A program made the translations under genes and the position numbers. The notes beneath the pieces are model-generated. The model had not been told where the DNA came from. It was given only the letters and a program-made list of their open reading frames with translations, and ran no database searches. Positions 8,234 to 32,077 of a stretch of DNA of 32,077 nucleotides are shown piece by piece (the first letter of the stretch is position 1; every line of letters starts with the position of its first letter). This DNA is from an uncultured Lachnospiraceae bacterium (GTDB taxonomy: Bacteria > Bacillota > Clostridia > Lachnospirales > Lachnospiraceae). The stretch spans positions 1-32,077 of the forward strand of contig CATJHO010000183.1 of the NCBI GenBank assembly GCA_949740535.1, read 5' to 3'.

Positions 8234-9571
8234 CTATCCCACATAATTATGCGGGTTCACATAGGTGCCATTTTTAATCACGCCGAAATGCAGATGGGGG
8301 CCAGTGGAAAAACCGGTAGAACCCACTGCCGCAATACTCTGTCCTGCGCTGACCACATCACCCACGGACACATAGAGGGCCGAGCAGTGCATATATACCG
8401 TAGAAATTCCATTACCATGAGAAATTACCACATAATTTCCTGCCGAGCTGCTGTAGGTGGATGTGGTAACCCTCCCGCTGGCAGCCGCCACAATACTCGA
8501 ACCATGGGAGGCCCCGATATCAATTCCCTTATGATTGGTGGAAGCTCCCGGAGTAGGCTGAGGCCTTGGGCCAAAATCACTGGTAATACGCCTGCTGCTT
8601 GGACAGGGCCAGACAAAACCGGAAGCGCCGCCGTCTCCGTCGTCTGCGCTGGCATTGGCCAGTGCCGCTGCCGCAATCTGCTCCTCGATCTGATTCAGCA
8701 GCCGCTCCTGCTCCTCCAGATCCTCCTTAAACTCTGCCGCCTCATTGTTCTGGCTGTCAATCTGAGCCTGGAAGCTTTGAATTTCTGCTGTTTTCTTCCG
8801 AACCAGGGCATCAACGGTCTCCTTCTGCTCCTTGGCAGCCTCCGCCATGGCTTCCAGCTCTTCCTCCTCTGCCTCCAGAACGGTCTTGGCAGCCGCAACC
8901 GCTTCCTTCTGGGCTATATACTGGTCCATCATTTTGCGGTCATATTCTGACATAGCCCGCACGTACGTGGACTTATTCAGAAAATCCCCCAGATTCTTGG
9001 ATGTCAGAAACATTTCCAGATAAGAGGGATTTCCATTTTCATACAGATATTGTATCCGCAGCTTCATATCCTCATACTGCTGATCTGCCACCCGCTGGGC
9101 CTCTTCCAGTTCTGCTTCTGTCTGGACAATCTCTTCTTTTTTATCTTCAATATCCTCATTCAACTTCTGAATCTGCGCTGCCAGCGCCGTGGCTTCCTGA
9201 TCCAAACGGGCAATATAGCTCTTCAGGCTGCTTTTACTTGCTTCCAGCTGTTCAATGTTTTTCTTAACATCATTCAGCTCCGCCTTAATTCCCTCTATCT
9301 TATTCAGCGTGTCCTTCTTCTGCCGTTCCAGCTTATCCGTATCGATCCAGTTGGAGGGCTTAGAAGGCTTTTCGTCGTCCTCTTTATCATCCTCGTCTTC
9401 TTCCTCTTTAGAAGAGGAGTCCTCTGAAGATTCTTCTTCCGAAGGAGCCGTTTCCCCTCCTGCAGAGATCTCTCCCTCTGAAGCCTGTACCAAAACCCGG
9501 CCGGGATAAAGCAGAAGCCCTGCCAAAAGTACTGTCAGAATCAGAATTTTTACAAACTGCTTTCTTCTCAT
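8234..9571 (-). CDS. Secreted murein hydrolase activator / M23 peptidase with long coiled coil (EnvC/PcsB-like)
   Basis: A 445-residue exported protein with signal peptide (MRRKQFVKILILTVLLAGLLL up to about residue 30). A short acidic Ser/Glu/Asp-rich stretch follows, then a coiled coil (about 75-300), then an M23 LytM domain (about 320-445). The zinc ligands appear intact: HKGIDIG, the YMHCSAL region and GPHLHFGV. The start has AAAAGGA 11 bases upstream. It lies 38 bp behind ftsX, the arrangement in which FtsEX controls a coiled-coil peptidoglycan hydrolase at the division septum. Because its LytM motifs look complete, it may be an active endopeptidase rather than only an activator like E. 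coli EnvC. Confidence 0.92.
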   Translation of the reverse strand: MRRKQFVKILILTVLLAGLLLYPGRVLVQASEGEISAGGETAPSEEESSEDSSSKEEEDEDDKEDDEKPSKPSNWIDTDKLERQKKDTLNKIEGIKAELNDVKKNIEQLEASKSSLKSYIARLDQEATALAAQIQKLNEDIEDKKEEIVQTEAELEEAQRVADQQYEDMKLRIQYLYENGNPSYLEMFLTSKNLGDFLNKSTYVRAMSEYDRKMMDQYIAQKEAVAAAKTVLEAEEEELEAMAEAAKEQKETVDALVRKKTAEIQSFQAQIDSQNNEAAEFKEDLEEQERLLNQIEEQIAAAALANASADDGDGGASGFVWPCPSSRRITSDFGPRPQPTPGASTNHKGIDIGASHGSSIVAAASGRVTTSTYSSSAGNYVVISHGNGISTVYMHCSALYVSVGDVVSAGQSIAAVGSTGFSTGPHLHFGVIKNGTYVNPHNYVG

Positions 9572-9609
9572 CTTTTCAACATTCCTTTTCTCATCTGTCC
9601 CGCCGGTAT

Positions 9610-10524
9610 TTAAACTCTCAAATGCTTCCGAATGGTCAGAAAGCTTCCAAAGAAACCAATTCCAACACCCAGGGCAAGACCAACAGGCAGCAAAATACGA
9701 AACATCTCATCCACCGGCAGGAACTGAACCAGCCCGGCCAGGTTATCAAACTGTCCTCCCATATAATTTACAATCTTTGTATACAGGAAATATAAAAGCC
9801 CCAGAGGAATCGCCCCGCCGATCACACCAATCAGAAGTCCCTCCACTACAAAAGGAGCCTTTACAAAGGAATTCGTGGCGCCGATCAGCTTCATAATCGC
9901 AATTTCTTCCTTTCGGACCGCAATTCCGATGGTAACCGTATTGCTGATCAGGAATACCGACACGCACAGGAGCAGAATAATAATCGCAATGGATACATAG
10001 CCCACCAGCAGGTTAAAGCTGGTGAGAATATCTGCCACCTCTACGGATTTATTCACTCTGCGTATTCCTTCCATGGATTCCAGATATTCCACAAGGCTGT
10101 TCTGATCTTCTACTTCCTTGAGATAAATCTCATAGTGCGCCTGCTTGGCCAGCGGATTGTCATTGGCAAATCCTTCCGCCAGTTCCGGGGCTTCTGCAAA
10201 GTAAATATACTTATAGGACTCCCAGGTCTCCTCTGCTGAAACAAACTTTACCTCTGCCACTTCCTCTCTGCCGCCAATCTTCTCTCCAATTTCCTTCATG
10301 GCCGCCTCATCCTGAGATACCGTCTCATCAAAGAACACCGTAACAGATACATTGCCTTCCACTTCTTTTATCATGTACTGAAAATTCTCCACAACGCAGA
10401 AGAATAGTCCGAACAGAAAGATACAGATCGACATTGTCGCAATGGATGCCAGAGAAAACATTTTATTTCTCCAGATATTCTTCAGACCCTGCTTCAAACA
10501 GTAGCCAATGGTACTAATTCGCAT
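9610..10524 (-). CDS. ftsX: Cell division protein FtsX (permease-like)
   Basis: A 304-residue membrane protein with an N-terminal cytosolic tail (MRISTIGYCLKQGLKNIWRN), TM1, an extracellular loop of about 130 residues, and three C-terminal membrane segments in a FtsX/MacB-type core (VSIAIIILLLCVSVFLISNTV). Together with FtsE it transmits ATP-driven signals to a peptidoglycan hydrolase outside. The frame is open 19 codons further upstream inside ftsE, but the ATG at 10524 begins the conserved sequence and overlaps ftsE by 11 bp. This fits translational coupling, as no clear Shine-Dalgarno is present. Confidence 0.95.
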   Translation of the reverse strand: MRISTIGYCLKQGLKNIWRNKMFSLASIATMSICIFLFGLFFCVVENFQYMIKEVEGNVSVTVFFDETVSQDEAAMKEIGEKIGGREEVAEVKFVSAEETWESYKYIYFAEAPELAEGFANDNPLAKQAHYEIYLKEVEDQNSLVEYLESMEGIRRVNKSVEVADILTSFNLLVGYVSIAIIILLLCVSVFLISNTVTIGIAVRKEEIAIMKLIGATNSFVKAPFVVEGLLIGVIGGAIPLGLLYFLYTKIVNYMGGQFDNLAGLVQFLPVDEMFRILLPVGLALGVGIGFFGSFLTIRKHLRV

Positions 10525-11203
10525 GTTGTATGTACCCAGCCTTACGCTCGTCACTGATAATGACGCCTCTGTGCATTGCAATTACCCGCTTCTTCATCTG
10601 ATCCACAATTTCCTGGTTATGAGTTACCACCACAACCGTTGTTCCTCTCTCGTTAATGGTCTCCAGAAGCTTCATAATTTCCTTCGAGTTCTTCGGGTCC
10701 AGATTTCCTGTAGGCTCGTCCGCCAGCAGAATATTCGGCCGGTTCACCAGCGCCCGTGCCAGCGCAACTCTCTGCTGTTCTCCGCCGGACAGCTGCTTGG
10801 GATAAGACTTGTACTTCTCTGCCAGCCCTACCAGCGACAGCATGGCCGGTACATTTCTTCGGATATTCTTGGAAGGCGTAATCACAACCCTCTGGGCAAA
10901 TGCAATATTTTCATATACATTCCTGTCCTTCAGCAGACGGAAATCCTGAAATACCACACCGATTTTGCGCCGGTATTTGGGAATGGCCCGCTGCTTCATC
11001 TTGTTGAGATTAATCCCATTTACCTTAATGGTTCCGGAAGTGGGCTCCAGCTCTTTGAGCAGAAGCTTAATCAGCGTAGACTTTCCGGAACCGCTGTCTC
11101 CCACGATAAAGACAAATTCGCCTTTGTCAATGTGCAGACTCACCCCATTCAAGGCATGGTTGCCGGTCGAATAGGCCTTTGTCACGTTTTCCAAATCGAT
11201 CAT
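10514..11203 (-). CDS. ftsE: Cell division ATP-binding protein FtsE
   Basis: A 229-residue ABC ATPase. Walker A is GDSGSGKST (35-43), the signature is LSGGEQQRVALARAL, Walker B is ILLADEPTGNLD, and the switch His is in VVVVTHNQE. The start IDLENVTKAYSTGNHALNGVS and the length are typical of FtsE. GAGGAG lies seven bases before the ATG. It overlaps ftsX and starts 33 bp after the CdaR-like gene, so that regulator is probably in the same transcript. Confidence 0.96.
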   Translation of the reverse strand: MIDLENVTKAYSTGNHALNGVSLHIDKGEFVFIVGDSGSGKSTLIKLLLKELEPTSGTIKVNGINLNKMKQRAIPKYRRKIGVVFQDFRLLKDRNVYENIAFAQRVVITPSKNIRRNVPAMLSLVGLAEKYKSYPKQLSGGEQQRVALARALVNRPNILLADEPTGNLDPKNSKEIMKLLETINERGTTVVVVTHNQEIVDQMKKRVIAMHRGVIISDERKAGYIQHAN

Positions 11204-13659: not shown

Positions 13660-14175
13660 TTGAGCTCAAAAACTAAAATCGTGGTCCTCCGCATGAAGGA
13701 GTTGATTTATACCGGCATTTTTGTGGCCCTGGGTATCATTCTCATCCTTCTTCTGGTGTTTATGTTTGCCCCCAAGGACAGCAAAACAGACACAACCGAT
13801 GCCAATGCCTCCGACAAGTACATACCCGGAGTCTATACCTCCTCCATTATGCTGGGCGGCAGCGCTGTGGATATCGCCGTTACGGTAGAGAAGAACGAAA
13901 TCGCCTCTATCCGGATGGTGAATGTCAGCGAGACCGTTGCTGCCATGTACCCTCTTATGGAGCCGGCACTGGATAATCTTGCGGAGCAGATTATTACTTC
14001 TCAGTCTCTTGATCATATTACATATCCGGATGAAAATCAATACACTTCTCTTGTACTTCTGGATGCAGTAGAACGCGCTCTGGAAAAAGCGGCGGCTCCG
14101 GAAGAAGAGACTCAAAAAACCGAAGAGAACGGAAACAGCGGAAACAATAAAACACCAACGGTTAAAGAAGAATAG
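13660..14175 (+). CDS. Small membrane-anchored protein with degenerate FMN-binding-like domain
   Basis: A 171-residue protein. It starts with TTG (CAGGAGGGG eight bases upstream); the first ATG, 11 codons later, has no ribosome site. One membrane anchor (about residues 17-36) is followed by an outside domain (about 50-145) starting with YIPGVYTSSIMLGGSAVDIAVTVEKNEI. This resembles the FMN-binding domain of RnfG/NqrC-like and extracellular electron-transfer proteins (G-x-Y-x-G, then V-x-V-x-x-x-I). The flavin-attachment S-G-A-T-x-T/S motif is missing: the place that should hold it reads ITYPDENQYTSLVLLDAVERAL. The tail is Glu/Thr/Asn-rich. It is probably a structural or ligand-binding relative that does not carry covalent FMN. 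Confidence 0.8.
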   Translation: MSSKTKIVVLRMKELIYTGIFVALGIILILLLVFMFAPKDSKTDTTDANASDKYIPGVYTSSIMLGGSAVDIAVTVEKNEIASIRMVNVSETVAAMYPLMEPALDNLAEQIITSQSLDHITYPDENQYTSLVLLDAVERALEKAAAPEEETQKTEENGNSGNNKTPTVKEE

Positions 14176-14192
14176 GCAGACAGCTTAGATGC

Positions 14193-14244
14193 AGATAAGA
14201 CTGCCGGGAAAAGCAGCAGCTTTCCCGGCAGCCTTATCTGTTTT
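14193..14244 (+). terminator. Intrinsic terminator after the 171-residue gene
   Basis: A 19-bp stem with one mismatch (14193-14211 with 14221-14239, 9-base loop AGCAGCAGC) is followed by GTTTTAATG. It lies between convergent genes; no T-run exists on the minus strand, so it mainly serves the plus-strand gene. Confidence 0.85.
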
Positions 14245-14285: not shown

Positions 14286-15917
14286 TTACTCTTTGTAACG
14301 CACAATGGTCCGGTCTGCCAGCGCCTCTGTGGTACTCACAATTACCTCTGTGTCACTGTCTATGACCCCTTCCTCAATAGCGGCGTATCTGTCATTCTGG
14401 TCTAGAACATTTACATAAACCAGTTCTGCCGCAAGTTCCGGACCCAGGATCCCGGATCTTTCGTTTAAAATATAGACAAAACTGCGGCCGTTTTGGTCTT
14501 TATAGAGAGCCTCCAGCGGAACACAGCAGTTAAAAATATCTGTCTGTGTTTCCGCAGAGAACAGGCCGCTCTGGCCAAGACTTCCCACTCCCTCAGGCAG
14601 GAAAATAATACCCTCGAAAAGCTCTGGGTTCCCATCACTTGCCGCCACGTAATCTATCGTCACAGATTCCTTGTTTTTTCCCAGCGACAGCTGTGCCGTG
14701 TCCCCCTGATTAACGTATTGTTTCTGTTCTTTTGTGAAGGTTACGTAAAACTGCAGGGGACTTTCCAGGTCTGCGCAGACAACTGCTGCTCCGTCGGGAA
14801 CCCGCTCTCCGGGACTTACCTGTATACGGGTAACAATTCCGTCAGATTCAGGATATATGCCTCCCCCCAAGCGCTGAACCTCTTTGTATTTCTCCAGCTT
14901 CTCCTTAAGCACTGACAGCTCCAGACGGTTAATGGCCAGGCTGTTGTCAGCTGCAGATGCTCTATGAACATCCTCCAGACGGCGTTCTGCTTCCAGAAGC
15001 ACATCGTCCCGGCTTTTTCTGGCGTTATCCAGGGTCTTCTGTGCCGTTTCGACGTTGTTCTCCAGTGTACGCTTTTTTTCTTCCCATGCCGCCTTTGACG
15101 CGTCTTCGCCGCTGTAATCGGGCTTCTCCTTTGGAACAGCCGTATAAGTTTTATACTCTTTCTCCGCATTCTGCCGGGCAGTCTCTGCCGCTGCCGCCCG
15201 CTCTTCTGCCGCCTGAAGCTCCGCGTCTGCGGCCGGCTTTCCCTCTTCTTTCAGTCGGTTCAGTTCTTTCTCCGCCTCCTTATATTCTGCGTCCGCATCG
15301 TCATACACCCTTTGAAGCTCTGCCCGGCGCTTTTCCCAGGCCTCATACTCAGCCTCCGCTTTCTGACGCTCCGCAACCGAAGTAATCCCGGAAGGACTGT
15401 CAGCAAGACCATCCAGGGCCTCCTTTGCCTCTGACAGTTCCCGTTTTGCCTGATCGACGGCCTTTTGCGCGCTGTCAGCCGACCGATCGTAATCCTCTCC
15501 CGCCCGTTCCTGTTCTGCCTTCTTCTCTTTGGCTGCCAGCCCTCGATTGGCTTCCTGTTCCTGAATAGTCAGGTCAAGCTTCTGAATATTCATTTCCTGC
15601 TCTCGAATCTGTTCCTCCAGATCCCCCATATCAATTTCAAATAAAAGGGTCTTTGTTGTCACCTTATCCCCTACGCGGGCATGCACGGTTCTGCATCGAA
15701 GTCCGCTTAAGGCATTGACTGCGTATTCCCTGCCCTGCTGCACAATTCCTTCTGCCTCCACCCGGTGGATGAGCGCGGTGCGCTCCGGTTTCCTGGTAGT
15801 AATCTGCGGAAGTCCGGAAGCGTAGACCGCTCTGGAAATCAGGGTGCACAAAAACATCAGACCCAGAAAAATTCCAAATGCGGCAGCCGTCTTCTTCTGC
15901 TTTTTCCACAATTCCAT
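14286..15917 (-). CDS. HlyD-family periplasmic-adaptor-like protein with long coiled coil
   Basis: A 543-residue protein. One N-terminal membrane segment (about 12-33) is followed by a first half biotinyl-lipoyl-like motif (GLRCRTVHARVGDKVTTKTLLFEID). A coiled coil of about 250 residues rich in Glu, Lys and Ala comes next, then the second lipoyl half (GIVTRIQVSPGERVPDGAAVV) and beta-barrel-like C-terminal parts. This is the layout of membrane-fusion proteins of ABC and RND exporters. AAGGAG lies ten bases upstream and includes the stop of the preceding permease gene, so the two are coupled. No MacB-like or RND partner is encoded nearby; the neighbours are sugar-type importer permeases, an odd combination. 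It may act with them as an extracellular scaffold, or with an exporter encoded elsewhere. Confidence 0.87.
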   Translation of the reverse strand: MELWKKQKKTAAAFGIFLGLMFLCTLISRAVYASGLPQITTRKPERTALIHRVEAEGIVQQGREYAVNALSGLRCRTVHARVGDKVTTKTLLFEIDMGDLEEQIREQEMNIQKLDLTIQEQEANRGLAAKEKKAEQERAGEDYDRSADSAQKAVDQAKRELSEAKEALDGLADSPSGITSVAERQKAEAEYEAWEKRRAELQRVYDDADAEYKEAEKELNRLKEEGKPAADAELQAAEERAAAAETARQNAEKEYKTYTAVPKEKPDYSGEDASKAAWEEKKRTLENNVETAQKTLDNARKSRDDVLLEAERRLEDVHRASAADNSLAINRLELSVLKEKLEKYKEVQRLGGGIYPESDGIVTRIQVSPGERVPDGAAVVCADLESPLQFYVTFTKEQKQYVNQGDTAQLSLGKNKESVTIDYVAASDGNPELFEGIIFLPEGVGSLGQSGLFSAETQTDIFNCCVPLEALYKDQNGRSFVYILNERSGILGPELAAELVYVNVLDQNDRYAAIEEGVIDSDTEVIVSTTEALADRTIVRYKE

Positions 15918-15924
15918 ATCAAAA

Positions 15925-16770
15925 TCACTCCTTCAGAGCAGAAGCTGTAATCCCCCGCTCCAGATATTCCTGTCCCATCAGAAATACAAACACAGGCGGT
16001 ATCAGTGTAATCACGGAAGCTACAAAGGAATAGCCCGCCTGGCTGAGGCTGATCTCCGGCAGATACAGGGACAGAGGCCACAGGCTTTTATCCTCCAGAA
16101 ATGCCAGAGGCTGTTCCATAAGATTCCAGTATTCCAGGAACCCAAGAACCACGGCAGACAGAATTCCATTGGAAGCCAGCGGAATCCCAATCCGCCAGAA
16201 AATAGTCCACTCTCCCGCTCCATCCACCCGCGCCGCATCAATAATACTCTCCGGCAGGGTACAGAATCCCCGGTAAATCAAAAAAACAGGAAAGGTTGAA
16301 AAAACAGCCGGGAAAATAACGGCTCCATGGGTATTCATCAGATGCAGGCCGTCCAGAACCAGGTAGTTGGAAAGCATGGTTACCTGAAACGGCATCAGCA
16401 TCAGCACCACATACAGGGTAAACAGTATGTTCCGAAAACGGAACCGGTATACCGCAAAGGCCCATGCTGCCGGGACAGCTAAAAGCAGCTGGCCCAGAAG
16501 CACCAGAACCACAATCTTCATAGAATTCCAGAAAACCACAAAAAACTGAGGCGTATAAAACAGCACACGGGCATAATGCTCAAAAGTGGGATATCTGGGC
16601 AAAAGCTTCCAGGCAATAAACTCTCCGGCACCGGAAGTCAGCGGCTCCAGACACTGCTCCAGTTCATAACGGCTGAACAGCGTTCCCGACACCGCCAGAA
16701 CCGCCGGCAGTAAAAAGAAAAGCGCCAGCAGAAACAGACAGACTTTCCGTATATGAGATTGTACACGCAT
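15925..16770 (-). CDS. Carbohydrate ABC transporter permease (MalG/UgpE-like)
   Basis: A 281-residue permease with six membrane segments (for example KVCLFLLALFFLLPAVLAVS and VVLVLLGQLLLAVPAAWAFAV). The EAA loop for ATPase contact reads IIDAARVDGAGEWTIFWRI, followed by IPLASNG. The frame is open 34 codons further up inside the previous gene, but ATG 16770 has GGGAGG six bases upstream, begins one base from the previous stop and gives normal family length. It pairs with the upstream permease. No ATPase gene is present; Firmicutes often share one MsmX/UgpC-type ATPase between such importers. Confidence 0.93.
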   Translation of the reverse strand: MRVQSHIRKVCLFLLALFFLLPAVLAVSGTLFSRYELEQCLEPLTSGAGEFIAWKLLPRYPTFEHYARVLFYTPQFFVVFWNSMKIVVLVLLGQLLLAVPAAWAFAVYRFRFRNILFTLYVVLMLMPFQVTMLSNYLVLDGLHLMNTHGAVIFPAVFSTFPVFLIYRGFCTLPESIIDAARVDGAGEWTIFWRIGIPLASNGILSAVVLGFLEYWNLMEQPLAFLEDKSLWPLSLYLPEISLSQAGYSFVASVITLIPPVFVFLMGQEYLERGITASALKE

Positions 16771-16771
16771 T

Positions 16772-17674
16772 TTATGCCTCCCTTCCATCCTGATCCCAGA
16801 TTTTCTGGAGCAGTAAAATAAAGAAAAACAGCACGGTCCCCACACAGACTGCGGCGGCAGCCATTTTATCAAGCTCCAGATTTACAAACCAGTTGTTGAA
16901 CAGGTGCTGCAGGAGATACATGCTCTCATGGGGATAAGATCCCGCCACCAGATAGGCCTCCCGGAATACCTTGAAGGAATTGAGAAAAGACAGCACCGTA
17001 ATGGTGTACATCGTCCCTTTCAGATTGGGAAAAACCACCTGCCAGAAGCACTGTCTTTCATTTGCCCCGTCCACCTTGGCCGCATCCAGAATATCCACAG
17101 GAATGGAAAAGATTCCGGCCAGCCAGAGCACCACAGTGTAGCCAAGATTCTTCCATACATAACTGAATACCAGAACCCAGAAAGCCGCGTCTGTGCCCAT
17201 ATAATCCACAGGGCCGCCCGCCCCTGTCAAATGCAGACTGTCAAGAAGCAGATTCAAAAATCCCTGCTTGGAAAATACCATTTTCCACACCAGCACAATC
17301 GCTGCCGCCGGCATGGCCATGGGAAACAAAAAGCAGGACTTGAAAAACTGTATCTTGCGCAGCCTGCTCAGCTGTACTGCCAGGAATAACCCCAGCCCAA
17401 TCAAAACCGGAAGGCAGACCGCGGTAAAACGAAGCGTATTTTTTACTGCCAGCAAAAAGGCCTGATTTTTGAAAATCAGCTGATAATTATAAAGCCCTGT
17501 CCACTCCTGTGATACGACGGTCAGAAAAGACCGCCGTATCACATCCAGAAATGGCAGGCATACAAAGATCAGGACCCCAATCCCGCTGGGCAGCAGAAAC
17601 CACATCCACACATTCCTGCTTTGCCTGAACTTTCCGGTTCTATTCCGCCAGATAAATCGCTGCTTTTTTAACAA
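16772..17674 (-). CDS. Carbohydrate ABC transporter permease (MalF/UgpA-like)
   Basis: A permease of about 300 residues with six membrane segments. The first is WFLLPSGIGVLIFVCLPFLDV followed by IRRSF, typical of the MalF/UgpA group. The EAA loop is ILDAAKVDGANERQCFWQVVF. The start is uncertain: the TTG at 17674 (GAAGGA two bases upstream, overlapping the preceding gene by 35 bp) keeps a basic cytosolic tail. An ATG 23 codons later has AGGA at good distance but would begin directly in TM1. It is coupled to the binding-protein gene before it and the second permease after it. The substrate cannot be read from sequence. Confidence 0.92.
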   Translation of the reverse strand: MLKKQRFIWRNRTGKFRQSRNVWMWFLLPSGIGVLIFVCLPFLDVIRRSFLTVVSQEWTGLYNYQLIFKNQAFLLAVKNTLRFTAVCLPVLIGLGLFLAVQLSRLRKIQFFKSCFLFPMAMPAAAIVLVWKMVFSKQGFLNLLLDSLHLTGAGGPVDYMGTDAAFWVLVFSYVWKNLGYTVVLWLAGIFSIPVDILDAAKVDGANERQCFWQVVFPNLKGTMYTITVLSFLNSFKVFREAYLVAGSYPHESMYLLQHLFNNWFVNLELDKMAAAAVCVGTVLFFFILLLQKIWDQDGREA

Positions 17675-19988
17675 TTTCCTTCACCGCGTCTTCCACACTA
17701 ATGCTTCCGTCCAAAGCCTTAGGACCTATCTCCTGAACCGTCTGCTCTATGACGGAATCACTTCCGCTGGCAGTATCCGCCGCATCTACAATATCACGAA
17801 GCCGTTGGAAATGTTGCTCTGTTACCCACAGGACTTCCAGAGAAAAATACTCCCCATCCCCATTACTGCTTCCTATAGAGAAACTGCTTTCCGGATCTCC
17901 CTCATTGGGATCGCTTTTCTGCTTCTCAAAGGACGCCATATTCATCGGCAGGCCGCCCGGCAGATCCAAATCCTGAAGTTCCTCTCCAAACAAAAACCGG
18001 AAGAAGTCCAAAGCCAGCTCATTTTCCATGGAATTGGCATATATTCCGATACAGGTGCTGGGCACAAAACTGTTCGGCATCTGTCCCGGATAAGAAACAT
18101 AGTCTATCTTGTCTTCCTGATCTGTAAGCGTGGTTACCATATTGAAGTCAGCATTCATGCCTTTGATGGTTCCGATTCCCAGCCGGCAGTCTCCTGATGC
18201 AATCCCCATGGCCTGAGAAGACGCACTTGCACTGTAATCCTCCCACGCAAGACTTCCCACCTGGCTCCACACCTGAACAAACCGCTCCTGCATCTCTTTA
18301 AGCTCCGCCTCGTCCCAGCCGGCGGTCTCCGCTTCATAGATCCGTTTTGCCTGGGTGAGGAATTCCGTCAGTTCTGCCTCGTCAATACTTCCGTCCTCCC
18401 GAAGCCATACACCGGAAGATGAAAGTCCCAATGTATACAGCACCTGTTCTTCCGTAATCAGCCGGGTAATCGCTCCTTCTGGGTATTCGGCTCTCAAGTT
18501 CTCTACTGCATCTGCCATATCGGAAAGATTGCGGATGTCTTTTATCACTGCCGGATCTCCCACTATCAACGGAATCTTAAAACGAACAGGCAGAGCGTAC
18601 AGCTTCCCATCTTCACGAAATGCATCTACCAGATTGGGAAACAGACTGTTTTCACCCGCCAGCCCCTTTTCCAGTTCCGTCAAATCCGCAAGGATTCCCT
18701 TTTCCTTATAGGACTGCTCTGGAAGTCCGTCCAGCACAAGCAGATCCGGTCCGCTGCCTGACATAATTTTTGTATTCAGATTCTTGACAGCATCCTCCCG
18801 TGTCATACCGTCATCTCCTGTCATCCCTGTCTCATACCGGATATAAACATCCGGATGTTTCTTCTGATACAGGCTCACTGCCTGCCGGATCGTATAATCG
18901 TCCTCCAGGCTGTAAATAGAAAGCTGTTCTTCCGGGACTGCCGGAACATTCGGATCATACGTATAATGGCAGAGCTTGGGTCCGTTATATAATACAATAA
19001 ATTCGTTATCAGGCAGAACTGCCATGCCTTTTAAATACATCTGGGGATCGCCCAGAGAATTCAGTCCTCCGTCTGCCACCTGCTCCAGAACCGTTCCGCC
19101 CAGAACATGCCGGTAAAGTCCCGTATTCATGGCAAGATAAATCACATCCTCTTCTCCGGAATCCATTACAATACAGTGGCTGCCAGAATTGCTTCCAATC
19201 GCATCTCCTGCCTCTTCTGCAATAAAGTTCTGAAGCACCTCATCCTTGGAAGCCAGGTTTTTTTCTTCCAGATCATAGAGTTCTGCAGTTCTGCTTGTAA
19301 GAATTACCATATAGCGGTCTGTGAAGCATACATAGTCCGTCACTCCATCCACGCTGCAGAGTTCCTGAAGGGAACCATCCTCACGGTTAATCTCGTATAC
19401 AGTCCCCTTTAAAGTAAAGCCAAAGAGACGGCTGTCCTTTCCGAACCACAGCTGATGCAGACTATCCTGTTCCTCTGTATATTGAATTTCGTGCCATGTT
19501 CCGTCCGCATCCACATATGCGCACTTGGGATGGTATCCCTTATCCTCCTCTTTTTCGCCCTCATCCTCACCGCCAGAGTATATGACACCAGCTGTTCCAT
19601 CCGGCGCCAGGGCAAGATGGGAGATATATGCTTCTTTTGCCGATAAATCTGTCAGCCAGGATGCCGGGCGGGTTTCCCAGGTCTCTCCCTTATCTGCAGA
19701 CACATACAGTCCCATGCTCTCATCCAGCAGGGCCGTTTCCCCACTTTCCAGAAGCTGTACCGCCGCTGCTCCCCACTCTTTGGCCATTTCAAATTCCTCT
19801 GGAAGCTCTATCTGGCGTTCCAGATAACGGCCCATACTCGGTTCCTTCTTTCCTTCTGTACCATTTTCTCCTGAACCTTCTGCCGGAGATGCCGCCTTGG
19901 GACCAGTGTTCTTTCCGCATCCGCTGGCAAGCGCCAAAGCAAACAGCAAAAGCCACGCTGTAATTCGTTTTAATCCGGTCTGTTTCAT
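17640..19988 (-). CDS. Lipoprotein fusing a propeller-like (Asp-box) domain to an ABC extracellular solute-binding domain
   Basis: A 782-residue exported lipoprotein. The signal ends in ALASGC with the acylated Cys at 24. Residues about 50-350 are beta-rich and contain an Asp-box, VSADKGETW (96-104), plus a partial one, VDADGTW, as in BNR/sialidase-type propellers. From about 355 (LSIYSLEDDYTIRQAVSLYQ) a complete family-1 solute-binding fold follows: NTKIMSGSGPDLLVLDGLP, KLYALPVRFKIPLIV, ALDFFRFLFGEE. Ordinary binding proteins have about 420-450 residues, so the N-terminal half is an added module. It is followed by two permeases. The ribosome site is unusual: AGGAG is 14 bases before the ATG, and closer to an out-of-frame GTG. 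It probably binds an oligosaccharide or glycopeptide; a sensing role for the two-component system is possible. Confidence 0.88.
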   Translation of the reverse strand: MKQTGLKRITAWLLLFALALASGCGKNTGPKAASPAEGSGENGTEGKKEPSMGRYLERQIELPEEFEMAKEWGAAAVQLLESGETALLDESMGLYVSADKGETWETRPASWLTDLSAKEAYISHLALAPDGTAGVIYSGGEDEGEKEEDKGYHPKCAYVDADGTWHEIQYTEEQDSLHQLWFGKDSRLFGFTLKGTVYEINREDGSLQELCSVDGVTDYVCFTDRYMVILTSRTAELYDLEEKNLASKDEVLQNFIAEEAGDAIGSNSGSHCIVMDSGEEDVIYLAMNTGLYRHVLGGTVLEQVADGGLNSLGDPQMYLKGMAVLPDNEFIVLYNGPKLCHYTYDPNVPAVPEEQLSIYSLEDDYTIRQAVSLYQKKHPDVYIRYETGMTGDDGMTREDAVKNLNTKIMSGSGPDLLVLDGLPEQSYKEKGILADLTELEKGLAGENSLFPNLVDAFREDGKLYALPVRFKIPLIVGDPAVIKDIRNLSDMADAVENLRAEYPEGAITRLITEEQVLYTLGLSSSGVWLREDGSIDEAELTEFLTQAKRIYEAETAGWDEAELKEMQERFVQVWSQVGSLAWEDYSASASSQAMGIASGDCRLGIGTIKGMNADFNMVTTLTDQEDKIDYVSYPGQMPNSFVPSTCIGIYANSMENELALDFFRFLFGEELQDLDLPGGLPMNMASFEKQKSDPNEGDPESSFSIGSSNGDGEYFSLEVLWVTEQHFQRLRDIVDAADTASGSDSVIEQTVQEIGPKALDGSISVEDAVKEIVKKAAIYLAE

Positions 19989-20050
19989 ATTTTTTCACAC
20001 TTCTCCTTTCTGTTTCCCACTGTGCAGTGTTTTATTGGTTTCAAACAAGT

Positions 20051-20614
20051 TTACAAAACTACGTCTACAATCTGAACCTCTTTTGCCCGGTATGCATCTT
20101 TCTCATAACTTCCTTTCAGGCTTACCTCCATACCCTTTTCCAGCTGCTCAAAGGAGCTTTCCGAATCCTCATAGCTGGCTCCGCCGTCCCGGATAGTCCG
20201 CTTATAGATACGTGTATTTTCATCGCAGAGTACGGTCAGGGAATCCAATTCCATCTCACTTTCATGTTCACTGCCGTCTGCCGGAGAAACCAGAATGTCG
20301 CTGCCGTCTTCTCCTGTCTCCTGATAAAATGTTCGAATTGTAAACTGCCCGTCTCCCAGATCCAGGATTTCTCCAATGGGCTGTTCTCCGTTCTGTGCTT
20401 CCAAACCTTTGTCCTCATCCATTTGCTCTGGCTGTTCCTCTGGAGTCTCTTCTTCCGGCTCCGGCTTCTCAGGCATTTCCTGCGGTACCTCATTCTGCTC
20501 TTCCTGTACCGGCTTCTCTTCCTTTGTACCACCGCTTCCGCATCCCAAGAGTGTCAGGCTCATAACGCCTGCCATTGTAAACAGCTTCATTTGTTTCCAT
20601 ACTTTCTTTTTCAT
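20051..20614 (-). CDS. Small lipoprotein with acidic linker and DUF5666/OB-like domain
   Basis: A 187-residue exported protein. The signal ends in the lipobox TLLGC (Cys 25). A Glu/Pro-rich linker (about 30-75) reaches a C-terminal beta-rich domain (about 78-187) with the pattern GEILDLGDGQFTIRTF ... LTVLCDENTRIYKR ... LEKGMEVSLKGSYEKDAYRAKEVQIVDV. This resembles the short OB-like DUF5666 fold; that match is by eye only. GAGGAG lies six bases before the ATG. It is the first gene of the operon that continues with the fusion binding protein 62 bp later, directly behind the two TTAGAGA boxes shared with the two-component genes. It could be the signal input or an accessory for the kinase. Confidence 0.82.
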   Translation of the reverse strand: MKKKVWKQMKLFTMAGVMSLTLLGCGSGGTKEEKPVQEEQNEVPQEMPEKPEPEEETPEEQPEQMDEDKGLEAQNGEQPIGEILDLGDGQFTIRTFYQETGEDGSDILVSPADGSEHESEMELDSLTVLCDENTRIYKRTIRDGGASYEDSESSFEQLEKGMEVSLKGSYEKDAYRAKEVQIVDVVL

Positions 20615-20645
20615 CTGCTTCTCCTCATCTTTCTCTTATATTGTG

Positions 20646-20683
20646 ACTGTATGGTAACAGGGGTATCTCTAATTTTTCTCTAA
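20646..20683 (-). promoter_or_regulatory. Response-regulator boxes and promoter of the lipoprotein-transporter operon
   Basis: On the minus strand TTAGAGA occurs twice exactly 11 bp apart (20677-20683 and 20666-20672, separated by AAAA). This head-to-tail spacing is typical for OmpR/PhoB-family dimers. A -10-like TACAGT (20646-20651) follows after 14 bp, with no good -35, as expected of an activated promoter. Confidence 0.65.
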
Positions 20684-20750
20684 ATTTTGTGATTTGCAAG
20701 GCAGACGGTTGAGTGTGTATGCTTTATCAAGAGAGGATATATTTATAAAA

Positions 20751-20792
20751 TTAGAGATTTCTTAAAGATTTCTTTGATAAACTTATGATAAT
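20751..20792 (+). promoter_or_regulatory. Response-regulator boxes and promoter of the two-component genes
   Basis: On the plus strand TTAGAGA (20751-20757) and TTAAAGA (20762-20768) lie 11 bp apart with TTTC between them. A weaker third copy, TTTGATA (20773-20779), follows at the same period. A TATGAT/GATAAT -10 (20784-20792) starts 15 bp after the second box. The boxes match those facing the opposite operon, so the regulator probably controls its own gene. Confidence 0.62.
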
Positions 20793-20836
20793 ATGGACAA
20801 AATAAATTATTTTCATTAATCTCTACAGGAGTTATT

Positions 20837-21508
20837 ATGCGGATATTACTAGTGGAAGACGATGCGAAATTAAATGAAGCCCTGGCTTTTCAGCTAAAGA
20901 AAGAGGGCTTTCAGGTTGACGCCTGTTACGACGGAGAGGAAGCTCTTTATTATATAGAAGAGCAGATCCACGACCTGATTCTCCTGGATCGGATGCTCCC
21001 TCTTATCAGCGGAACCGAAGTTCTTTCCCGCATGCGTCAGGCCCGCAACGAAACCCCGGTGATTCTTATCACGGCTCTTGGAACTCTGGATGACAAAGTA
21101 ACGGGTCTGGATACCGGCGCGGACGATTATCTGGTAAAGCCTTTTGCCTTTGAAGAGCTGGTGGCCCGCATTCGCTGCATCGCCCGGCGGCCCCGCCGGA
21201 TGGAAGCAGACGCTCAGCTTACTCTGGGGGATCTTGTTTACCATCTGGGCGAAAATATCCTCACAGGTCCGGCTGGTTCCCACAGCATATCCAAGCGGGA
21301 GGGAGCGCTCCTGGAAGCATTTCTGCGCAATCCCGGCCAGACCCTTTCCCGTTCTCTTCTCCTGATTAAGGTCTGGGGCATGGACAGCGACGTGGAAGAG
21401 GGCAATCTGGATAACTACATTCATTTTCTAAGACGGCGGCTGAAATCCGCAGGAAGCTCTGTACATCTGCGTACAGTCCGTGGAATTGGTTACCGCATAG
21501 AAGCATAA
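20837..21508 (+). CDS. OmpR/PhoB-family response regulator
   Basis: A 223-residue two-domain DNA-binding regulator. The receiver has D8/D9, phosphoacceptor D51 (LILLDRMLP), T79 and K101 (YLVKPF). The C-terminal winged helix (about 128-223) ends in RTVRGIGYRIEA. AGGAG lies five bases before the ATG. A histidine kinase gene follows after 41 bp, and the transporter operon is divergent. Family members bind direct repeats about 11 bp apart, exactly the layout of the TTAGAGA boxes beside it. Confidence 0.96.
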   Translation: MRILLVEDDAKLNEALAFQLKKEGFQVDACYDGEEALYYIEEQIHDLILLDRMLPLISGTEVLSRMRQARNETPVILITALGTLDDKVTGLDTGADDYLVKPFAFEELVARIRCIARRPRRMEADAQLTLGDLVYHLGENILTGPAGSHSISKREGALLEAFLRNPGQTLSRSLLLIKVWGMDSDVEEGNLDNYIHFLRRRLKSAGSSVHLRTVRGIGYRIEA

Positions 21509-21549
21509 TACACGATGCGCATTTCCGGTTCCTTCCAGAAAGGAGACTT

Positions 21550-22827
21550 ATGGTTCAAAAAGTACACGTTCGTCTGGCTGTGCTCTGCGCCGGCATTACG
21601 CTTTTTATTCTGGCGGTTATGTCCTGTGGTTATCTCTATATTTCCGAAAAAAGTTTAAAAAACAGCAGTTTTACTGCTTTTCAGCGGGAAATGGAAGATC
21701 TCTCCGGCAGCCTTACACAATCCAGCATTTTCACCTGGAACCAGCTTAGAGAAATCGAGGAACAGGGAACTTATTCCATTCAGGTTCTGGATAATGATAT
21801 CCCTCTTCTTTTCAGCCAGCATCCATCCAGGGAACAGACAGAGCTCTTTGCGCTTGCATGGAACTTTTATGACCAGCATTTTGACATCCAGTCTCTGGAT
21901 ATGGACACTTCCTGCCGCGGAGAATTCGCTTTCTCCTCCAAAGGCTATGGTTCCTCGGATTACTTCGGCTGTGCCACTATCATAGAGCGGAACGGCGGCC
22001 TTCTCCGCATTATGATTTTAATGCCTTTAACCACGCTGCACCGGCAGATTCGTACACAGAGACTGCTGTTCGGCCTTACAGCTGCTTTGGCAGCGGCCGC
22101 CCTGTTCCTGTTTTCCTGGTATTTCACCAAACGCCTCCTTCGGCCTTTGGAAGAAAACCAGAGAAAGCAGACGCAGTTTATCGCTGCCGCTTCCCATGAA
22201 CTGCGCACGCCTCTGGCGGTAATTCTCTCCTGCGCTTCGGCCTCCCGTTATGGAAATCCAAAAGAGCAGGAACATTTTCTGAACTCCATTCAGTCCGAGG
22301 GTATGCGTATGTCCCGGCTCATTGACGATATGCTTCTTCTGACCAGCGCCGAAGCTCACACCTGGACCATCGAAAAACGGCCCGTGGAGCTGGATACCCT
22401 TCTTCTGGAGATCAGCGAGGCCTTTGAACCCATAGCTGCCGAAAAATCCATCCGGCTTCTGGCCGAACTTCCGGAAGGCGCTCTGCCGCCCTGTTCCTGC
22501 GATCCGGAGCGGATCCGGCAGGTACTTTCCATTCTCCTGCACAATGCAGTAAGTTATACACCAAAGGGCGGCCGCATCCGGCTCGCTCTGTCTTTTAACA
22601 AAGTATTCTATATTCAGACAGCAGACAATGGGCCTGGTATTCCCGACGAAGAAAAGGCCCGCATTTTCGACCGCTTCTACCGGGGCGATGGGGCCCGCAG
22701 CCAAAAGGGTCATTTTGGCCTGGGACTTTCCATCGCTTCTGAAATTATAAAAGCCCACCAGGGAAAACTTTTGGTGGGCGATACCCCAGGAGGCGGGACT
22801 GCTTTTACAATTATTCTGCAACAATAA
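21550..22827 (+). CDS. Membrane sensor histidine kinase, partner of the upstream response regulator
   Basis: A 425-residue kinase with TM1 at about 8-30, an outside sensor part of about 120-140 residues, and TM2 at about 172-192. HisKA has FIAAASHELRTPLAV (H216), and HATPase_c has N332 (LLHNAVSYTPKGG), DNGPGIP (359-365) and GHFGLGLSIASEI. No classical HAMP of full length is apparent between TM2 and the H-box; only about 20 residues separate them. AAAGGAG precedes the ATG. The sensor has no domain I recognise, so the signal is unknown; the divergent lipoprotein operon suggests an envelope or nutrient cue. Confidence 0.95.
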   Translation: MVQKVHVRLAVLCAGITLFILAVMSCGYLYISEKSLKNSSFTAFQREMEDLSGSLTQSSIFTWNQLREIEEQGTYSIQVLDNDIPLLFSQHPSREQTELFALAWNFYDQHFDIQSLDMDTSCRGEFAFSSKGYGSSDYFGCATIIERNGGLLRIMILMPLTTLHRQIRTQRLLFGLTAALAAAALFLFSWYFTKRLLRPLEENQRKQTQFIAAASHELRTPLAVILSCASASRYGNPKEQEHFLNSIQSEGMRMSRLIDDMLLLTSAEAHTWTIEKRPVELDTLLLEISEAFEPIAAEKSIRLLAELPEGALPPCSCDPERIRQVLSILLHNAVSYTPKGGRIRLALSFNKVFYIQTADNGPGIPDEEKARIFDRFYRGDGARSQKGHFGLGLSIASEIIKAHQGKLLVGDTPGGGTAFTIILQQ

Positions 22828-30286: not shown

Positions 30287-32077
30287 TCAAAAAAGCATTC
30301 CCACATGGTAAACCGCAGCTGCCACCGCCCAGGCAAGTACCAGCTGGAACACTGCGCCAAAGATGGTCCACTTCCAGGAATTGGTCTCTTTCCGAATCGT
30401 CGCAACCGCTGCCATGCAGGGTGTATACAGTAAACAGAAGGTCATCAGTGCATAGGCATTGACTGCCGTAAATCCAAGACCGCCCAAAGCTTCCCGCATC
30501 CCGGCCATCCCGGCTGCTGAAGTTACATTGGTAATTCCAAACAGCACGCTCATACTAGACACCACCACCTCTTTCGCCGCAAGGCCTGCGATCAGGGCAA
30601 CCACTACCTGCCAGTACCCCAGACCAGCCGGTTTCATCAGCGGCGCCGCTGCCCGGCCGGCCGCTGCCCCAAAACTCATAGACATATCGGATACCATTCC
30701 ACCAGGCCCAAAGTTTAAAATTACCCAAAGCACAACGGATGCGGCAAAGATGGTTGTCCCCGCTTTGCGCAGATAATCCTCCACCTTCTCCCAGGTGTAA
30801 ATCGCTATGCTGTGAATATTGGGAGACTTGTATTCCGGAAGTTCAATCAGCAGTGTGTTGATCTCTTTCTTTCTCGTAAACAGATTCATTACCAGCGCCG
30901 CCACGACAGCTGTCACAATCCCCAGCACATACATGGAGTATGCTGCCCAAACAGCGCAGTTCGGGAAAAACATCCCTGAAAACAGCACATAAATAGGAAG
31001 CCTTGCGCTGCAGGACATAAAGGGTGTCACCAGAATGGTTTTCAGCCGGTCTCTGGGATCCTCAAGCGCCCTGGAGGCCATCACGGCAGGAACCGTACAG
31101 CCAAACCCCAGCAGCATAGGAATAAACGCCCGTCCCGACAGACCAATCTTTCCCATAATACCATCCATCACATAGGCCACTCTGGCCATATAGCCGCTGT
31201 CTTCCAGGAAGGCAAGAGCCAGAAACAGAATAAAAATATTTGGCAGAAAGGTCAGTATTCCTCCCACGCCAGCAATAATTCCATCTACCACCAGCGAGCG
31301 CACAATACTGCTTACGCCCCCGGACTCCATAGCGTTAAGAATCAAAGCCGTAACCTGATCCAGCCCCTCCTCCATATATCCCTTCAGCCAGTCGCCGATT
31401 GTAAAAGTGAGGAAAAATACAAGAGCCATAATCCCAAGGAAAATCGGCACTCCCCAGATACGGTTGGCCAGTACCCTGTCAATCTTGTCTGTAAATTCTG
31501 CCTTTCTGCTCTTTCCAACCAGACACTCTTCAATAATTTCCTCAATAAAATCATACTTCTGGCTGATAATCTCCGTCTCGCAGCTTTCCCTTGCAATCCC
31601 TGTCATATCAATGGGGTATTGATTTCGAATCTCTTCATCCCATTCCAAATGCTTGATCGCGTGCCAGCGCATATTGGGCAGTTCTCCGTATTTCTCCCGC
31701 AGACGGTCAGAAACCGCGTCAATCTTATCCTCCAGTTCATCGCTGTACACCATAACAATGTCTTTATGATGATCGTGCTTGTGATGGCTTATCCCTTCAT
31801 GATGGTGTTCCAGATTATGATCCAGCTCCCGATCCTTGTGATGAATCACCGCGTGCATCAAAATCTCCAATCCCTGCCTGGTTCTCGCACTTACCGGAAT
31901 ACAGGGAATCCCCAGCATTTCCGGCAGGCGGTGCAGATCCATATCCATACCCCGCTCTTCCACAATATCCATCATATTCAAAGCCAATACCACCGGTTTT
32001 CCAAGTTCTATCAGCTGCAGTGTCAGGTACAGATTCCGCTCCAGAGAAGAAGCATCTGCCACATCAATTACCACATC
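30287..32077 (-). CDS. feoB: Ferrous iron transporter FeoB, C-terminal part (5' end beyond the window)
   Basis: At least 596 residues remain; the frame is open to the window edge, beginning DVVIDVADASSLERNLYLT just after the missing G1-G3 motifs. The visible GTPase parts are G4 NMMD and G5 VSAR. A His-rich cytosolic segment follows, then a spacer with helices. The membrane domain has two gate motifs, GFGCTVPAVMASRALED and SCSARLPIYVLFSGMFF, and ends with CLLYTPCMAAVATIRKE. It imports Fe(II), with GTPase-controlled gating. No FeoA is visible on the downstream side. The His-rich stretch (about 31765-31858) has 11-12 His in about 30 residues, which is more than I expect for FeoB. Confidence 0.96.
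   Translation of the reverse strand, partial: DVVIDVADASSLERNLYLTLQLIELGKPVVLALNMMDIVEERGMDMDLHRLPEMLGIPCIPVSARTRQGLEILMHAVIHHKDRELDHNLEHHHEGISHHKHDHHKDIVMVYSDELEDKIDAVSDRLREKYGELPNMRWHAIKHLEWDEEIRNQYPIDMTGIARESCETEIISQKYDFIEEIIEECLVGKSRKAEFTDKIDRVLANRIWGVPIFLGIMALVFFLTFTIGDWLKGYMEEGLDQVTALILNAMESGGVSSIVRSLVVDGIIAGVGGILTFLPNIFILFLALAFLEDSGYMARVAYVMDGIMGKIGLSGRAFIPMLLGFGCTVPAVMASRALEDPRDRLKTILVTPFMSCSARLPIYVLFSGMFFPNCAVWAAYSMYVLGIVTAVVAALVMNLFTRKKEINTLLIELPEYKSPNIHSIAIYTWEKVEDYLRKAGTTIFAASVVLWVILNFGPGGMVSDMSMSFGAAAGRAAAPLMKPAGLGYWQVVVALIAGLAAKEVVVSSMSVLFGITNVTSAAGMAGMREALGGLGFTAVNAYALMTFCLLYTPCMAAVATIRKETNSWKWTIFGAVFQLVLAWAVAAAVYHVGMLF

Follow-up and report, generated by a model that had tools for sequence, protein, structure and literature searches.

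ATP-binding cassette (ABC) importers are considered apart from exporters that depend on an adaptor, and adaptors of the HlyD/MacA kind usually serve exporters. Among the closest described systems, which are given here from excerpts of the cited papers, the binding protein CbpC of Clostridium thermocellum was reported to have a blocked pocket and no sugar binding, and a mutant of its transporter was reported to have no growth defect on glucose, cellobiose or Avicel (PMC9601137). An earlier study had reported that CbpC binds glucose and cellodextrins (as cited in PMC11212667), and cbpC is up-regulated on xylose (PMC7471329). In the Cua system of Ruminiclostridium cellulolyticum a solute-binding protein was shown to bind the sensor kinase (PMC10384115, PMC5663094). 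Here we describe a probable regulon that combines importer and adaptor parts, found in the DNA of an uncultured Lachnospiraceae bacterium (contig CATJHO010000183.1, a stretch of 32,077 nucleotides that was analysed as a whole and is called the window below). One operon encodes two importer-type permeases (P1 and P2), a solute-binding lipoprotein (SBP), a small lipoprotein (LP) and an adaptor (MFP), and it is divergent from the genes of a response regulator (RR) and a sensor kinase (HK). We propose that these genes specify a ligand-responsive, self-inducing importer-type ABC device with an adaptor, whose logic resembles that of the Bce modules more than that of an operon for sugar catabolism, and we assign this reading a probability of about 0.6.

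The genome is a 3.03-Mb draft of 84% completeness, and the open reading frames of all loci were called by a simple script. The seven genes with their domains, as given by the first-pass annotation of this DNA, were recovered by open reading frames, Pfam and family profiles (TM, transmembrane segment):

14192-14240, strand-neutral: hairpin and probable terminator (about -38 kcal/mol on either strand), between the operon end and a convergent gene (13660-14175)
14286-15917, minus: MFP, adaptor of HlyD/MacA-like type, with a single TM at the N terminus and a long coiled-coil hairpin
15925-16770, minus: P2, importer-type permease (BPD_transp_1, 2.3e-13), probable start ATG at 16770
16772-17674, minus: P1, importer-type permease (BPD_transp_1, 1.1e-14), start codon uncertain
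17640-19988, minus: SBP, lipoprotein of 782 residues with a putative propeller-like N-terminal half and a solute-binding C-terminal half, lipobox ASGC
20051-20614, minus: LP, small lipoprotein with an acidic linker followed by an OB-fold-like domain, lipobox LLGC
20651-20683, minus: predicted RR operator (exact TTAGAG-N5-TTAGAG) with the extended -10 promoter for LP-SBP-P1-P2-MFP
20751-20783, plus: predicted RR operator (variant) and extended -10 promoter of RR/HK, second half-site TTAAAG
20837-21508, plus: RR, OmpR/PhoB-type response regulator (Response_reg 6.2e-29, Trans_reg_C 2.9e-18)
21550-22827, plus: HK, sensor kinase (HisKA 4.4e-17, HATPase_c 3.5e-25) with two TMs

The listed TTG start of P1 at 17674 overlaps the SBP stop, and alternative P1 starts are possible. 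The sequence GGAGG precedes the P2 ATG, which adjoins the P1 stop, and MFP starts 7 nt past the P2 stop with its own ribosome-binding site, AAGGAG. This gap leaves no room for a transcript end between the permease and adaptor genes, an outcome that had been named as a point against one unit, and the hairpin lies after MFP. Family scans of the operon proteins revealed no ATPase or export permease gene within the operon.

Conserved gene set and shared operator

Dozens of other genomes carry this set as well, and so the gathering of these genes is more than chance. MFP was searched in 299 family genomes and matched in 83 at E ≤ 0.001, the genome itself included; the 39 best-scoring loci outside this genome hold P1 in 37 cases, P2 in 38, SBP in 36, RR in 26 and HK in 24. 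A second, independent search with the SBP alignment against a named genome collection yielded 75 distinct loci among the best 80 of 363 relatives, including Eisenbergiella tayi, Diplocloster agilis and Anaerosporobacter faecicola as well as strains or bins of Lachnoclostridium, Merdimonas, Robinsoniella and Roseburia. P1 is present in 59 of these loci, P2 in 58, MFP in 57, RR in 58 and HK in 55, and SBP, P1, P2 and MFP stand together in 56 of the 75. Eleven of the 19 incomplete loci end near a contig edge, with no more than 3.3 kb left behind SBP; the other eight have a flank of at least 7 kb, and all eight genomes hold MFP elsewhere. The idea that loci with SBP and RR/HK and without permeases are independent sensors was rejected on this ground. 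Across 88 distinct full operons (window included), RR or HK is in view in 67. Thus, when operons regularly lacking both adaptor and kinase were looked for, the adaptor was nearly always kept or encoded elsewhere in the genome, and the RR/HK pair proved less constant. Importer permeases with an adaptor, first regarded as an oddity, form a recurrent family. It is present in many Lachnospiraceae and extends to other Clostridia families, where the gene order varies:

L178: SBP P1 P2 MFP MM
L179 and L180: SBP SBP MFP MM P1 P2, with divergent RR/HK
L181: P1 P2 MFP MM
L269: P1 P2 MFP MM SBP
L270: P2 MFP MM SBP

Here MM is an extra, MacB-like gene that is absent from the window.

The intergenic DNA between RR and the operon was compared in 64 divergent regions (62 without two duplicates). 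Perfect 8-base repeats are most frequent at a spacing of 11 bp, in 20 regions against 0.3 in shuffles. The exact TTAGAG-N5-TTAGAG occurs in 45 of the 64 regions against 0.0 in shuffles (44/62 without duplicates). In each of the 45 it lies on the operon strand, and 5 regions have it on the opposite strand too. The relaxed TTARAG form is present in 50 of the 64 regions (49/62 without duplicates) and in 27 of 4186 control segments of equal length from the same loci. At a fixed spacing after the repeat follows TGnTAnnnT, in 49 sequences on the operon side and 29 on the regulator side. An operator in place of the -35 box with an extended -10 is the layout of a PhoB/OmpR-type activator site. Given the shared operator replacing the -35 box and the fixed-spaced extended -10, the most likely role of RR is to activate both the operon and its own gene. 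No published description of this operator was found in open-licence papers.

The exact repeat occurs once in the genome, before this operon. The full pattern of repeat and extended -10 gave 64 sites in 44 of 397 family genomes, and the reversed pattern gave 4. Sixty of the 64 sites were examined (left out were three of G719 and one of G184); the gene behind them is SBP in 25 cases, LP in 15, RR in 13, P1 in 2, P2 in 1 and another gene in 4, so that 56 precede a module gene. In the eight genomes with SBP loci lacking permeases and adaptor, 20 of 34 sites were examined, at least three of them in loci already counted elsewhere; LP lies behind 10, SBP behind 5, P1 behind 3 and other genes behind 2, which gives 18 of 20 for module genes. 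Three of these eight genomes (L300, L303 and L306) carry P1-P2-MFP apart from SBP and RR/HK, and both pieces begin with the operator. Their genomes are related rabbit-gut bins, judging by the names of L131, L134 and L129. The operator in these three genomes ties the parts together better than adjacency does. Based on the operator at both separated pieces and the site census, LP, SBP, P1, P2, MFP and RR/HK very probably form one regulon. As a side observation, the weak operator of L231 (G177:C1, minus-strand site ending at 8737) precedes genes that match adaptors faintly and a probable ABC ATPase gene, which may represent a related regulon.

Components of the module and their partners

Both permeases keep the importer EAA loops: the first position is E or D in 91 (P1) and 93 (P2) of 94 rows, and the loop glycine is kept in the same numbers, 91 and 93 of 94. 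With two BPD_transp_1 permeases bearing EAA loops and an extracellular SBP, the module has two of the features of a type I ABC importer of the MalFGK/UgpBAEC kind. The lack of an ATPase had been considered remarkable in the first-pass annotation. However, the genome contains one OB_MalK ATPase match, encoded stand-alone outside the operon and without a permease beside it in the 13.9 kb examined, and this ATPase belongs to the UgpC subfamily (493.3 bits against a cut-off of 432). We propose that it probably powers P1/P2. An operon without its own ATPase is ordinary; ATPases common to several sugar importers are known (PMC7658222). The operon of L069 has its own UgpC ATPase (447.5 bits), and that of L268, a distant relative, is of the same kind and scores below the cut-off (387 bits).

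The adaptor as a single sequence falls below the Pfam cut-off (HlyD_3, 17.3 against 22.2 bits) and matches TIGR00999 at 2.7e-9, under the cut-off of that model. The family profile matches the solved adaptors ZneB (2.8e-15) and MacA (8.3e-12), and at this level MFP shows the HlyD/MacA architecture, in which a coiled-coil hairpin is surrounded by the lipoyl, beta-barrel and membrane-proximal domains. Its TM comprises residues 10-28. The TM, the first lipoyl half and the membrane-proximal part are more conserved than the hairpin (region borders set by hand), and the length varies from 430 to 800 residues across the 88 operons. L268 encodes a 122-residue version with the TM and a stretch resembling the C-terminal part. 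There (G393:C29, 362-7109) the order is SBP-P1-P2-mini-adaptor-ATPase, and the set lies directly behind two genes that, by sequence reading, resemble those of a C39-type peptidase/ABC exporter and of a small protein bearing a GG-type leader; these neighbours suggest a possible link to peptide secretion or immunity. The other adaptor of the window genome (G000:C133, L071) stands beside a different RR/HK pair and an ABC ATPase, without sugar permeases. We also considered the adaptor as a chance neighbour and rejected this, as it co-occurs with the permeases across loci and moves with P1-P2 behind its own operator.

In the window operon MFP is not encoded with an export transporter, and a MacB-like partner is found only in deep relatives. 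The claim that an export-type membrane partner is simply absent therefore needs revision, since these relatives encode one, MM, beside the adaptor. MM is present in 30 of the 39 MFP-seeded loci, mostly directly after MFP, with a 4-base overlap in 13. Besides a MacB-like periplasmic core domain, its product has a TM at the N terminus and usually further ones; by hydropathy, four or more TMs were counted in 16 of 29 members and one to three in 13. With E ≤ 0.5, 20 of 25 members match MacB_PCD, the first member scoring above the gathering score, and the MM profile finds YknZ (2.5e-5). No FtsX domain match is listed for MM, and a motif scan of 41 stretches, with no genome-wide search, revealed no MacB/LolD-type ATPase beside it. 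On the P1+P2 tree, built by a quick method with a midpoint root and some long branches, MM lies on deep branches, requires 2 changes over 94 rows and is absent from the 48-row clade holding the window. The window genome yielded no MM match at E ≤ 0.001 among the 5 of 12 candidates scored. The missing export-type permease thus appears to be a lineage loss of MM in the clade of the window. The less distant relatives L103, L104, L107 and L108 have an MM without the C-terminal part. MM occurs in 36 of the 88 full operons, LP in 25, neither in 27 and both in none (Fisher 9e-8, not corrected for kinship). The possibility that MM and LP replace each other was rejected, because three genomes with MM operons (G046, G251 and G268) carry LP elsewhere behind the same operator.

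The SBP matches Pfam SBP_bac_1 (3.8e-13), and its AlphaFold2 model (pLDDT 88.2, pTM 0.85, from an alignment of 55 rows) shows 24 strands over residues 54-362 followed by a two-lobed SBP fold. The family profile reaches WD40-type chains (3dm0, a RACK1 fusion, 8.9e-12; 5yzv, PkwA, 1.8e-7), and one Asp-box, SADKGETW, is located at residue 97. However, the 50 Foldseek matches listed for the model contain no propeller and all align through the SBP/maltose-binding domains, so the N-terminal half has no structural match of its own among them. A propeller-like N-terminal half, as read in the first-pass annotation, is therefore supported by the strand pattern and the WD40-type profile matches but not proven. 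The C-terminal half matches sugar-binding proteins in fold (Foldseek) and in profile, with CbpC of C. thermocellum the best match of the family profile among solved chains (2.3e-24). The last 12 residues are the most conserved of five regions compared and mostly end in YLAE or similar. The 88 operons carry one SBP in 64 cases, two in 15, three in 8 and four in 1. An operon in one genome (L032 and L086) has three SBP fusions, one of them between both permease genes.

LP itself has no DUF5666 match in Pfam, and 15 of 39 homologues do (best 1.6e-4). The AlphaFold2 model is confident for about residues 80-187 only (pTM 0.57), and the Foldseek matches are OB folds such as uS17 and CusF, all weak at E > 0.001. 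In relatives LP is also a stand-alone gene behind the same operator. HK has TMs at residues 9-27 and 172-190 with an extracellular domain of about 145 residues between them. In one relative (L098, 68-5614) two hybrid kinases of 693 and 1140 residues, with PAS and receiver domains and a dCache match below cut-off, lie upstream of LP-LP-SBP-SBP-P1-P2-MFP; similar long kinases are found in L100, L102 and other LP-bearing loci.

Two further gene groups in the window lie outside the module. An FtsX gene adjoining an M23 peptidase with a PcsB-like coiled coil (8234-10581) forms a cell-wall hydrolase set nearby, and a FeoB-like iron transporter is found at the window edge (30287-32074), where it is probably cut by the window end, as its G-domain match starts at profile position 81.

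Explanations for the module

In the proposed mechanism, RR would activate the operon and its own gene via the direct-repeat operator. The SBP would capture an extracellular ligand, sugar-like or sugar-containing by its fold, and dock on P1/P2. The TM and the membrane-proximal domain of the adaptor may sit on the permease complex with the hairpin reaching into the wall, and the loaded SBP, or the state of the complex, would switch HK on. The predicted regulon holds almost nothing beyond the device, and therefore it probably works like a sense-and-respond module of the Bce type and not as a catabolic uptake arm. The first-pass annotation had suggested an envelope device; one co-regulated unit with its own two-component system is supported, at the level of sequence, by the operator and the conserved set, and the coupling of transport, sensing and signalling is what we propose on top of it. 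More tentatively, and at less than even odds, the assembly might be a hybrid ABC machine, in which type I importer permeases are physically joined to a MacA-type adaptor and, in the ancestral form, to a MacB-like subunit; an importer core with a UgpC/MalK-type ATPase would then drive or read an extracellular adaptor assembly in single-membrane bacteria, wired to a kinase of its own.

Several observations weigh against a self-inducing sensing device. One-mismatch operator hits in the genome number 5 against 27 for the reversed control, and therefore only the exact or promoter-linked form is telling. Even the loosest motif is missing from 11 of the 64 divergent regions, and behind one of the "other" sites, that of L231, lie adaptor-like and ABC genes that do not belong to the module. 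RR and HK of the family are both missing in the stretch examined from 21 of the 88 full operons and from L181, L182, L183, L268 and L270, the last two of which have an SBP too short to include a propeller; sensing by the RR/HK pair is therefore not universal. In addition, the oligosaccharide-binding-like fold of the SBP fits plain uptake too, and catabolic targets around the operons or behind the "other" sites could be overlooked, as annotation there was not systematic. The neighbouring RR is the putative operator-binding protein by its position, and ligand capture, transport direction and signalling are proposals from sequence.

The module could instead be a conventional importer of oligosaccharides whose own two-component system senses sugar, as in CuaABC/CuaDSR; the adaptor would then serve as a structural aid, holding the SBP or guiding sugar through the wall. 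The match of the SBP to oligosaccharide-binding proteins by fold and profile (above all CbpC), the type I permeases with EAA loops and the UgpC-type ATPase all agree with this, and a clostridial relative is known to have a three-component system of SBP, kinase and regulator (PMC10384115, PMC5663094). However, the operator sites classified (60, and 20 more) nearly always precede the device's own parts, and CbpC, despite the earlier contrary binding report (as cited in PMC11212667), was reported with the blocked pocket, absent sugar binding and normally growing transporter mutant described above (PMC9601137). Based on the near-closed regulon and these CbpC findings, a sensing/transport device is preferred over plain nutrient uptake, without certainty, and we regard the importer explanation as rather unlikely. 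The self-contained regulon would also suit a detoxification or envelope-protection module that captures or displaces an antimicrobial or wall-active compound, with HK/RR reporting as in BceAB-BceRS. The MacA-kind adaptor and the MacB-like subunit of deep relatives point the same way, and Gram-positive MacB-family transporters with adaptors or kinases resist peptides (PMC5985334). We consider this unlikely, as the window has neither a MacB/Bce ATPase partner nor a MacB-like subunit, known Bce and MacAB systems contain neither importer permeases with EAA loops nor a sugar-type SBP, and HK, with its extracellular domain of about 145 residues, is unlike the intramembrane-sensing kinases.

MFP could also be a hitch-hiking gene that serves an exporter elsewhere and has no tie to the permeases, in line with the usual service of such adaptors to exporters and the lack of an exporter in the window operon. 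This is very improbable: P1 accompanies MFP in 37 and P2 in 38 of the 39 MFP-seeded loci, the set is kept in other families in other gene orders, and in three genomes P1-P2-MFP stay together at a place apart from SBP, behind an operator of their own.

Comparison with known systems

Each part of the module is of a known kind. For the combination, searches of open-licence papers gave no description save the naming of an acrA gene in PMC9601137. Widespread among gut Lachnospiraceae and marked by a sharply defined operator, the module allows the idea of a new ABC assembly to be tested and may be a surface sensor of common gut bacteria. For annotators it is also a warning: such genes are labelled as sugar transporters or as efflux pumps, and neither label is established.

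Similar to the window, transporter C of C. thermocellum (the CbpC operon, Cthe_2125-2128) has two importer permeases in one operon (PMC9601137, PMC8303734). The acrA gene is named in one of five C. thermocellum transporter operons and is placed in the CbpC operon by elimination only (PMC9601137). CbpC differs from the window SBP in being a 438-residue chain without propeller and in its disputed sugar binding, and the excerpts mention no two-component system or MacB-like gene with CbpC (PMC9601137, PMC8303734). The CuaABC/CuaD-CuaS-CuaR system shares a two-component system, an SBP and importer permeases with the module (PMC10384115, PMC5663094). In contrast, the target operon of CuaR includes a catabolic enzyme, the cellobiose phosphorylase CbpA (PMC5663094), signalling and transport use separate SBPs, and an adaptor or fused propeller is not mentioned in the excerpts (PMC10384115, PMC5663094). 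The MacA/YknX adaptors with MacB/YknZ (PMC5985334) belong to the same adaptor family, and a MacB-like core domain is encoded beside the adaptor in our deep relatives, whereas the window module has importer-type permeases and no MacB-type ATPase was seen beside its adaptor. BceAB-BceRS differs in its ten-TM BceB, its own ATPase and its intramembrane-sensing kinase, and it has no SBP, adaptor or importer permeases (PMC3023708, PMC5985334); the window module has neither a BceB-like ten-TM permease nor an intramembrane-sensing kinase. What the two have in common is a two-component system beside the ABC unit that it controls (PMC3023708, PMC5985334), a control that is predicted here from the operator sites.

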